The position numbers and the translations under genes were made by a program. From Flavobacterium limicola (lineage in GTDB: Bacteria; Bacteroidota; Bacteroidia; Flavobacteriales; Flavobacteriaceae): DNA of 64,000 nt. Below the pieces are notes generated by a model. It had not been told where the DNA came from. It made no database searches and was given only the letters and a program-made list of their open reading frames with translations. Of this stretch, positions 12,911 through 55,970 are shown in pieces. Position 1 is the first letter of the stretch; each line of letters opens with the position of its first letter. The stretch covers positions 1,240,001-1,304,000 of the forward strand of contig NZ_RBXA01000001.1 in assembly GCF_003634755.1 (NCBI RefSeq), read 5' to 3'.

Positions 12911-13021
12911 TTAGCCCCGATTACAATGGAAATCCTTTTAGTAGGTGATTATGACGAATGAAGATTCACGTACTAAAACATTGCAATCTCGTCTTCAGGA
13001 CGAGACGGGAAATAGCTCCTA
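12911..13021 (-). ncRNA. Structured intergenic element, copy D (Flavo-1 RNA candidate)
   Basis: Read on the minus strand, AGC-TATTT-CCCG (at 13017-13006) pairs with CGGG-GCT (12919-12913), leaving a five-base bulge on the 5' side. Inside are a seven-pair hairpin (TCTCGTC/GACGAGA) and an outer arm TTTTAGTA/TACTAAAA (12936-12943 with 12971-12978). The conserved ends match four other loci in the window. It sits between udk and the DivIC-like gene, in their direction. Whether it is transcribed is unknown. Confidence 0.6.
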
Positions 13022-27048: not shown

Positions 27049-27196
27049 GAAGCTATTTCCAGCTTTCCGTTATAATCCAGCAGCAAAAATAATTTGTTTT
27101 CAATTGCCCAAAAGGAGCTTCCTGCGGTCGCTCTTTCAGGCAAGAAAACAATAGTATTTTTTACTGATGTATTTCCGCTTTAATCTGGGCTAGGCA
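27049..27196 (+). ncRNA. Structured intergenic element, copy E (Flavo-1 RNA candidate)
   Basis: AGC-TATTT-CCAG (27051-27062) can pair with CTGG-GCT (27185-27191), again with a five-base bulge. The conserved ends (GCTATTTCCAGCTTTCCGTT and TTTCCGCTTTAATCTGGGCT) match the other copies. The inner arm is longest here, about 120 bases, and folds less clearly. It lies in the divergent region between the MacB-like gene and hisS. Confidence 0.55.
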
Positions 27197-33246: not shown

Positions 33247-33330
33247 AGAGCTATTTCCCGCTTTCCGTTGCAATCTTTTTATTTTTAAATAAAAATAAAA
33301 AGGATTTTCACTTTAATCGGGGCTAGGGCA
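33247..33330 (+). ncRNA. Structured intergenic element, copy A (Flavo-1 RNA candidate)
   Basis: AGC (33249-33251), bulge TATTT, CCCG (33257-33260) pair with CGGG-GCT (33318-33324). Inside, CTTTTTATTTTT and AAAAATAAAAAG form a 12-13 pair arm around an AA loop. Shortest and cleanest copy, co-oriented with the ABC permease before it and the sigma-54 activator after it. The same closing helix occurs at four other loci with compensatory changes. Confidence 0.6.
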
Positions 33331-36526: not shown

Positions 36527-37385
36527 TCCTTTTTTATAAGAAATCCAGTTGCATATACTTGTGTTATTTATAATAAGTAAGTTAATAGTCGATACGATTA
36601 TACGCAATAGCAAAACGATTTATTATAGCCGATTTATAACTTTTACAAAAATCAATGTATACTCGTATTCTTTTCAGGACATCTGTGCGGGGATTCTTCA
36701 AACTTTTTGTCCTTTTCCCAAAACCTCGGATTTGTAAATCGTACTCATAAATAAATAACTAAACTTAATGATTTCGTGGCATACTTGTGTCTTTTTATAA
36801 TAATGATGAGGTGCATTTAGTTTTTAGTTCAAATTAAGATGAAATTCTAAATTATTTTTAAAAATCAAGGTAAAAAGACCACTAAATGTGGTCTTTTTTA
36901 TTGAAATGCATTTAAACGCTATTGCAAGTATTTATTTATTATATGATAATTAATAATTGTTAAAAAAAAACAAAACAAAAAGTCGATAATCAAGAATTTA
37001 GATCGATTATCGCTACTGATGCTTTTTTTTATTGGATTAATTTTGACTTAATATTAACAGTAACACTTTTTTATTAGTACAATTTTAACTTTTAAGATAT
37101 GAAATGTATAGCGTATTGACATAAAATTAAATAGACCGTAATGATTTAGTTTAGTCTTTTTTTGAATTGATGTTCGATATAATACCAATAAATAATGATA
37201 ATTAATTTTTTAAAAAATTGTAAAAACAATCCTTTAATCCTAAAAACATCCTATGTCAAAACCACGAAAAAAACCACCCCAACCCATCGCTAGTTTTAAT
37301 TTACTATAAATACTAGCAAACAAATCAACAAAATGGTGTAATCCGAAAAACCATAATAGAGTAGGATAAAAATAATTTTAATATT
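36527..37385. other. Long intergenic region with an orphan terminator
   Basis: About 860 very AT-rich bases between the HAD gene's hairpin and the orphan lipoprotein gene. A 62-codon frame (36549-36737) has no start context, homology or codon signal that I trust. Visible structures: a strong terminator at 36872-36899, and an 8-bp inverted repeat CGATAATC/GATTATCG (36985-36992 with 37006-37013) followed by a T-run at 37023-37030. An 18-codon proline/lysine-rich frame (37253-37309) precedes the lipoprotein gene. A small RNA or a decayed gene is possible. Confidence 0.45.
36872..36899 (+). terminator. Strong terminator with no gene in front
   Basis: An 11-pair stem AAAAAGACCAC/GTGGTCTTTTT with loop TAAAT and six T following. 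The nearest plus-strand gene ends 430 bases upstream and has its own hairpin, so this may terminate an unannotated small transcript. Confidence 0.8.
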
Positions 37386-38153
37386 ATGAAAATTTTTAAA
37401 TTAAAACACATTGCAGTGGTATTGATAGCAGGACTTTTAGTGTCGTGTACAGCAACAGATACTATGCCAGAAGTTGAACAAAATGCTACTATTGAAACTG
37501 ATGGTTTACCTATAGAAAATGGAACGCATTATGTAATTAATGGCTCTGTTACAAACGATATTAATGCAGTGAAGATAGCTGCTAAAGATGCTTGGAATAT
37601 CCATTATGATTATTCTAAAAATAAAATAGTTATTTCAACAACCCCTTCAGAATTTGAAAAGTATAAAAAAATTGATCTTGAATTTGCTTCAAGATTAAAT
37701 GAAAGTACAATTGAAAAATCAAGTGCTAGAGTTGCAGCTACTGAACTTATACCTGCTTTACCGAGTCATTCTGGCAGACTTGTTTTTTACTACGAGTACG
37801 GTGTAGGAACGAATTTTGATCAAGTGTTTCACTTTGCTCGTCGTGATGTTCCTGATACAAGTGTAGCTTTTGAGTCTATGAGACACGTCAAAGGAGTACA
37901 GGTACCTGATGGTTCTTTCTCTTTTAATGTTGTACTTACTGGTATGTTTTCGTATCCAACAACTTCTACAAATACTTATCAAATACATGTTATTAATCAC
38001 AGTTCAACAAGTAAAACTTTTACTGCTTACGCTGGCAAAAATTATAGCGGTGAATCAAAATCTGTAACGGTTGCCAAATATTCTGATAAGCGTCTTTATG
38101 CGGGGACTTTTAAATTTCAAAATGGTACAAACGTGGCTGATTCCTTCAAATAA
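37386..38153 (+). CDS. Orphan exported lipoprotein
   Basis: A 255-residue protein with a lipoprotein signal (MKIFKLKHIAVVLIAGLLVSC, lipidated Cys21) followed by a Thr/Asp/Glu-rich linker. The second half (about 115-255) is rich in aromatic and Ser/Thr beta-strand segments such as GRLVFYYEYGVGTNFDQVFHFARR and TSTNTYQIHVINHSSTSK. No family is recognised. The next gene, 23 bases downstream, encodes a Cys-rich secreted protein and is surely in the same operon. An immunity, anchoring or partner role for that protein is only a guess. Confidence 0.75.
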   Translation: MKIFKLKHIAVVLIAGLLVSCTATDTMPEVEQNATIETDGLPIENGTHYVINGSVTNDINAVKIAAKDAWNIHYDYSKNKIVISTTPSEFEKYKKIDLEFASRLNESTIEKSSARVAATELIPALPSHSGRLVFYYEYGVGTNFDQVFHFARRDVPDTSVAFESMRHVKGVQVPDGSFSFNVVLTGMFSYPTTSTNTYQIHVINHSSTSKTFTAYAGKNYSGESKSVTVAKYSDKRLYAGTFKFQNGTNVADSFK

Positions 38154-45083: not shown

Positions 45084-45194
45084 TGCCTAGCCCAGATAGT
45101 AGTGAAAATCCTTTCTAGTCCTGAACTTGTTTCAGGATTCTGAAACAAGTTCAGGACTAGAAAGATTGCAACGAATAGCTGGAAAATGCTCCTG
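45084..45194 (-). ncRNA. Structured intergenic element, copy C (Flavo-1 RNA candidate) with 25-bp hairpin
   Basis: On the minus strand AGC-ATTTT-CCAG (45190-45179) pairs with CTGG-GCT (45095-45089). The inner arm is a perfect 25-bp inverted repeat (45111-45135 with 45140-45164) around a four-base loop. The closing helix carries A-T where copies A and D have C-G. It occupies the divergent region between the propeller-like gene and PPK2. Confidence 0.6.
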
Positions 45195-55863: not shown

Positions 55864-55970
55864 AGGAGCTGTTTCCTGCTTTGCACTGTATTCCCGATTT
55901 AGAAAAACTACGGCCGAAAAAGCCTTGTTTTTCTAAATCGGGAGATGCCGTTGCGATCAGGGCTAGGGCA
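55864..55970 (+). ncRNA. Structured intergenic element, copy B (Flavo-1 RNA candidate)
   Basis: AGC-TGTTT-CCTG (55867-55878) pairs with CAGG-GCT (55958-55964); the third pair is T-A where copies A and D have C-G. The inner arm is a perfect 16-bp stem (55892-55907 with 55928-55943) around a 20-base loop that contains a small GGC/GCC hairpin. Located between the MFS gene and the peroxiredoxin gene, same strand as both. Confidence 0.6.

Follow-up and report, generated by a model that had tools for sequence, protein, structure and literature searches.

Flavo-1 copies between genes of Flavobacterium limicola: a covarying, strand-specific fold that may act as DNA

Five Flavo-1 copies in the window

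Five gaps between genes in the 64-kb stretch of Flavobacterium limicola DNA analysed here (the window) are occupied by copies of one element, listed with their neighbours in Table 1. The layout AGC-5nt-CCNG ... CNGGGCT is matched exactly five times, at 13017 (-), 27051 (+), 33249 (+), 45190 (-) and 55867 (+), where first-order Markov sequences of equal composition give 0.015 matches per window and none in which N is paired; the five-copy layout of the preliminary description is thus borne out. The bulge is TATTT in three copies, ATTTT in one and TGTTT in one, and all three sequences had been described. Three different Watson-Crick pairs occur at the N position, as had been claimed: C-G in the copies at 12911 and 33247, A-T in those at 27049 and 45084, and T-A in that at 55864. 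The 2/2/1 split is the one described, and the pairs given to individual copies agree only if the letters A to E used earlier did not follow coordinate order. The inner arms, said to be self-complementary in copies A to D, fold strongly in four of the five window copies, the copy at 27049 being self-complementary only in part.

The sighting was correct, and the family is already known. Flavo-1 RNA (RF01705) had been offered as a guess, and cmscan places three copies above the curated Rfam cut-off of 42 bits (33250-33328, 77.6 bits; 45085-45189, 72.9 bits; 55868-55968, 46.1 bits) and copy B below it (27052-27195, 31.7 bits). Copy A gave no Flavo-1 match at E values up to 0.5. Its outer stem and one arm are standard, and 19 nt of the other arm form a separate hairpin, which replaces an arm segment and so puts the copy out of reach of the Rfam model; despite this extra left-arm hairpin, it is a clear member of the family. 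Flavo-1 was reported from Flavobacteriales by Weinberg et al. 2010 (PMC2864571) with the same sequence and consensus structure, dispersed and tied to no gene. The Rfam entry models just the simpler, type I hairpin (76 positions) and is labelled an sRNA gene; its strand, called the Flavo-1 strand below, is opposite to the one written out in the preliminary description.

Table 1. Flavo-1 copies of the window and the modules within them; the strand is that of the Rfam model.
Feature	Coordinates	Strand	Description	Neighbouring genes	Basis
Copy A	12913..13017	+	Flavo-1, stem CCCG/CGGG	uridine-kinase-like and divIC-like, tandem	layout match
Small hairpin TCTCGTCTTCAGGACGAGA	12987..13005	.	replaces internal-loop segment of copy A		sequence
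Copy B	27051..27191	-	Flavo-1, stem CCAG/CTGG, long apex with nested small palindrome	MacB/FtsX-type permease and hisS, divergent intergenic region	
Nested module AAAGGAGCTTCCTGCGGTCGCTCTTTC	27110..27137	.	within apex of copy B		recurs in other copies
Copy C	33249..33324	-	Flavo-1, outer pair AGC/GCT, bulge TATTT, stem CCCG/CGGG	ABC-2 transporter and sigma-54 response regulator	
Copy D	45089..45190	+	Flavo-1, stem CCAG/CTGG, bulge ATTTT	DUF6929 and PPK2, divergent intergenic region	
Copy D apex	45111..45164	.	25-bp perfect palindrome		
Copy E	55867..55964	-	Flavo-1, stem CCTG/CAGG, bulge TGTTT	MFS and peroxiredoxin, tandem	

Each of the five copies has an orthologous counterpart, at the corresponding position, in one or both of two species of about 88% nucleotide identity (codes such as G007 and G103 denote sampled relatives). 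The orthologue of copy A in G007 has a standard arm, CCCGCTTTCCGTTGCAATC, without the small hairpin, which is present in that of G029. Copy B has an intact orthologue in G029 and a decayed one in G007, and its nested module recurs at C1:1156367 of F. limicola and at 847408 of G007. Copy C, the apex of which is A+T-rich, carries an extra module within the arm at the same site in G007. At the site of copy D, G007 has CCTG/CAGG instead of CCAG/CTGG, a change on both sides of the stem, and three species have three unrelated self-complementary apices. Copy E has an orthologue in G029. Judged by the response regulator, the named species nearest to this genome is F. fryxellicola, with a protein identity of 97%.

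Elsewhere in the window, nt 37333-37367 match the Rfam DUF805b RNA (RF02914, 42.4 bits); the ORF that starts about 20 nt downstream (37386-38153) has no Pfam match.

A covarying fold on one strand

The fold was described from 189 copies of three genomes, parsed to a common frame. Read from the base upward on the Flavo-1 strand, it consists of a CC-N-G/C-N'-GG stem, an A.G mismatch, a T-A pair and a variable pair X-X', followed by a 3x3 loop G-N-A/G-N-A, two pairs R-Y, a second loop that is usually GNA/GNA, and an apical stem. All seven structural pairs are kept, the variable ones through covariation. Position N5 is Watson-Crick paired in 181 of the 189 copies (C-G 69, T-A 66, G-C 28, A-T 18), X in 171, R in 140 with a further 34 G-T, and Y in 159. 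The purine positions are nearly invariant (A7.G in 185, G10.A in 171 and A12.G in 169 of 189), and the middle base of the loop is free. The GNA/GNA loops would presumably form tandem sheared G.A pairs. Purine loops of this type occur, and are stable, in RNA and DNA alike.

At the four variable pairs taken together, Watson-Crick pairing accounts for 651 of the 756 cells (86%), and it drops to 9-26% when the partner is slid by 1-3 columns. Covariation scores of fixed-length arm alignments, the rows of which had been fitted to the frame beforehand, were 0.575 for type I (56 rows) and 0.461 for type II (18 rows, the closing stem having been located by complementarity before scoring), and none of 500 shuffles scored as high. 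Because the rows were pre-parsed and the type II stem was found in this way, the percentage paired leans towards structure, and the count of changes on both sides of a pair is the safer measure. The selected base pairing claimed in the preliminary description is supported by covariation among the 189 copies, and the CCNG/CNGG positions, which it had singled out for a genome-wide check, do covary.

About 19 copies of F. limicola, none of them in the window, belong to a second form, type II, in which GGG/CCC replaces CCNG/CNGG (e.g. L299:1501-1578, and copies on L310, L312 and L324). These are closed by a stem of 5-6 bp outside GGG/CCC, with a second hairpin in between, in the layout GCGTGA-GGGAT...AGCCC-GACCC(hairpin)GGTCACGCC. 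The closing stems display changes on both sides (GCGTGA/TCACGC, GCGTAA/TTACGC, GCACA/TGTGC, GTGTG/CACAC, GCATG/CATGC and GCGCAA/TTGCGC). In type II, a closing stem that covaries and a second hairpin that varies thus join the core in a three-way junction. The bulge of five bases in type I occupies the position of this second arm, and the Rfam model scores just the core that both forms share.

Several further variants were noticed. About 12 F. limicola copies have, in place of the 5-nt bulge, a stretch of about 30 nt, often with TGAAA and ending in TGCTCC (among them C1:1176743, C2:293785, C1:300027, C1:1372582 and C4:203898). A second small repeat, ACGAAGTTCACTGAACTCC...AGTGAAGTAA, recurs inside Flavo-1 arms, in F. 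limicola at C2:385850, C1:1608960 and C3:580937, and in relatives at site C of G007, at site D of G029 and, between CCAA and TC, at the serC-serA sites of G052 and G307. Certain apex palindromes also recur in a lineage-specific manner (GGTCTCGT..ACGAGACC, GCCGGGGTTCGGC, CCGCCGCGGCGG and CCCGAAGnnTCGGG; for example at C1:604143 and C2:454616 of F. limicola, and at 633611 and 636421 of G103), which suggests that apices are exchanged between copies as blocks.

Where pairing fails on the Flavo-1 strand, G-T outnumbers A-C by 55:8 overall and by 19:4 in F. limicola, or by 50:7 and 16:3 when only the four parse-free pairs are counted. In F. limicola the ratio depends on the parse, being 11:9 in the first, 20:11 in a loose and 19:4 in the final parse; the first two mis-registered some arms, and the final parse was used. 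In G103, 30 of the 34 G-T cells are at R13, and a single inherited variant at that position may account for most of its G-T cells. The excess of G-T over A-C indicates that one strand is the selected form, and a preference for G-U over A-C is also expected of an RNA. The copies are not significantly biased in replication strand in either of two complete genomes (permutation p 0.09 and 0.52), nor in their orientation to genes (see below), which makes a strand bias of mutation improbable as the cause of the excess.

Distribution, placement and conservation in place

Flavo-1 was found in 140 of 150 sampled Flavobacterium genomes, at least 29 matches being present in most, so that further copies in related genomes, the absence of which would have told against the preliminary description, do exist. 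Flavobacterium genomes without the element are G018, G020, G033, G058, G076, G084, G085, G087, G123 and G130. Across Flavobacteriales it occurs in 20 of 81 genera sampled. F. limicola has 89 matches, G103 108 and G136 38. None of the 89 F. limicola copies overlaps an ORF of at least 120 aa. Twenty lie in tandem gaps in the sense of the genes and 34 antisense to them, 20 between divergent and 15 between convergent genes. The hint of an antisense bias in F. limicola (20:34) was gone once G103 was added (pooled sense to antisense 35:44, p=0.37), and in the pooled set divergent and convergent gaps have shares similar to those among all gaps between genes in 400 kb. Promoter-like boxes upstream of the copies are not enriched (9 observed, 7.3 expected), and flanking conservation ends sharply at TAGC and GCTCC.

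At orthologous sites the frame is kept and the apex replaced, and the same pattern was seen between G103 and G268 at the sites backed by Rfam coordinates, to which this comparison was confined. The gap between serC and serA could be followed across many species. The two genes were identified by Pfam. In a search of 399 genomes, of which 394 were scored and 50 alleles extracted, the element is present in about 28 parsed species and missing in about 20. Among the latter is G268, which is about 95% identical in both flanks, and G114 has half an element. Over 23 filled species, mean arm identity to G103 is 0.94, compared with 0.70 at fourfold sites, the former value being favoured by the regular expression used to find the arms, which prefers conserved ones. 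Variation in the arms falls mostly at the free loop base, and includes changes on both sides of N5 in G008 and G091.

The haplotype of variable pairs at serC-serA is kept in most species, and two random copies of G103 share a haplotype with a probability of 0.05. This fits selection on the copy in place and not homogenisation by random gene conversion, which is an unlikely cause of the conservation. Empty and filled alleles can be aligned, with intergenic flanks that differ too much to fix the polarity or the boundaries of a target-site duplication. Such conservation, at a site from which sister species have lost the element, is not what an important host function would usually show. The best pair of paralogues in F. 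limicola is 92% identical, and since no pair exceeds this value, no recent spread is apparent in that genome; G103 has some pairs that are 95% identical, with unrelated flanks.

RNA, mobile palindrome or DNA site

Rfam lists Flavo-1 as 'Gene; sRNA', and both the covariation and the G-U-like preference of one strand would suit a small RNA gene, or a structure borne on transcripts, made from the Flavo-1 strand. In F. psychrophilum, some 5' transcribed regions coincide with Flavo-1 matches; the matches there are in the sense or the antisense of transcribed regions, and many lie outside them, in either sense (PMC9723704). The small transcripts that the preliminary description had envisaged also fare badly against the placement in F. 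limicola, with its unbiased orientation to neighbouring genes, lack of promoter enrichment and conservation that stops at the element ends. The 34 copies antisense to both neighbours would need promoters of their own, and the copy number, 38-108 per genome, likewise speaks against such genes. On this evidence an RNA product is considered rather unlikely, and the RNA label doubtful. A bidirectional transcription terminator or mRNA-stability hairpin, for which the intergenic location and the strong hairpin might speak, is very improbable: Rho-independent terminators lie downstream of genes, but the 20 copies between divergent genes, including B and D of the window, have no mRNA end to serve, orientation follows no rule, and the loops and base are conserved far past the needs of a terminator. 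Leaders and terminators conflict with position and orientation, and sRNA promoters were not seen, and a role at the level of DNA is therefore preferred, by exclusion. The preliminary description had allowed for either RNA or single-stranded DNA, of which the evidence rather favours the second.

As DNA, Flavo-1 could be a purely selfish, non-autonomous mobile palindrome of the REP or MITE kind, its fold conserved for transposition only. This would explain the occurrence of dozens of copies between genes, in either orientation, their presence or absence between close species, the swapping of whole apices and small palindromes at orthologous sites, and the 95% identical pairs of G103. Against it stands the serC-serA copy, conserved beyond fourfold sites with its haplotype across about 28 species, as a dead insertion would not be. 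Nor was a mobiliser found. Mobilisation by RAYT or IS200 transposases was considered by reading or scanning about 50 loci across the genus (PF01797 and the F. limicola RAYT as queries) and rejected: these genes are flanked by other REPs, and Flavo-1 was found by cmscan in 3 of 40 scanned loci and by eye in one more, which is about background. Flavo-1-rich genomes without a Y1 transposase match exist (e.g. G004 and G053), as does the reverse, and searches of plasmids and phages gave no Flavo-1 match. A solely selfish origin of the conservation is thus judged improbable.

The reading preferred here, to which we would give about an even chance, is that Flavo-1 copies are chromosomal DNA elements, a strand-specific hairpin maintained by the host and working like a REP element, and not sRNA genes. 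A folded single-stranded docking site for a putative protein is the most likely mechanism. One strand folds into a rod in which short Watson-Crick steps alternate with purine internal loops (A.G, then GNA/GNA); its base is closed in type I by a short stem and a 4-5-nt bulge, and in type II by a stem that covaries and a second hairpin arm. The apex is free to change provided that folding persists, and purifying selection holds the frame site by site, even though whole copies can be missing in close relatives. The folded strand may act as single-stranded DNA that supercoiling extrudes or replication exposes; the protein would recognise the base and the purine loops, and the apex would be a mere spacer or cap. 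Likely roles are those of the REP/BIME type, such as a supercoil or nucleoid boundary, or protein docking between genes. The fuller proposal, of a host-maintained single-stranded hairpin or three-way junction that is recognised through tandem G.A-type loops and under purifying selection at single sites, is put forward more tentatively.

In the broad sense Flavo-1 is REP-like, being of high copy number, intergenic and imperfectly palindromic. With REP, BIME and REPIN elements it shares short intergenic palindromes in dozens to hundreds per genome, mosaics with other palindromes and long persistence. It differs in its length of about 80-140 nt, its purine internal loops and three-way-junction form, and in having no cognate RAYT, those of Flavobacterium carrying different, short REPs. 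Its foot is NTAGC rather than the GTAG or GGAG of REPs, and TAG can be preceded by any of the four bases (T 38, C 31, A 16, G 4). Integron attC sites, compared here by likeness rather than homology, are likewise strand-specific folded DNA with a conserved base, unpaired stem bases and a variable terminal structure; Flavo-1 copies are, in contrast, scattered single sites with different conserved sequences, and neither cassettes nor an integron integrase were seen. The end hairpins of IS200/IS605 elements are also single-stranded and recognised on one strand, but Flavo-1 has no linked TnpA, is not paired as element ends and is uncorrelated with Y1_Tnp across genomes.

Relative to RF01705, the current study adds the type II junction, the purine loop rules, the nested modules, neutrality of orientation and purifying selection on single copies in place, together with evidence that one strand's fold is selected and that the RNA label is doubtful. 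Selection, on this evidence, acts on the fold of one strand at fixed sites, and not on the apex or on the orientation to genes. A widespread family has been filed for more than ten years as an sRNA, probably without acting as RNA. If the fuller proposal holds, Flavo-1 would represent a kind of structured DNA site new to Flavobacteriales; and if the DNA reading is true, catalogues of structured RNAs may contain further DNA elements found through covariation alone.

The only RAYT gene of F. limicola (L031:1396-1947) carries an interrupting TGA codon, and a REP of its own (CTCGTTTGCAACGAG, with the foot TACCTACTT) flanks it. It adjoins a gene for a protein that, by eye, resembles a TIR-type domain.
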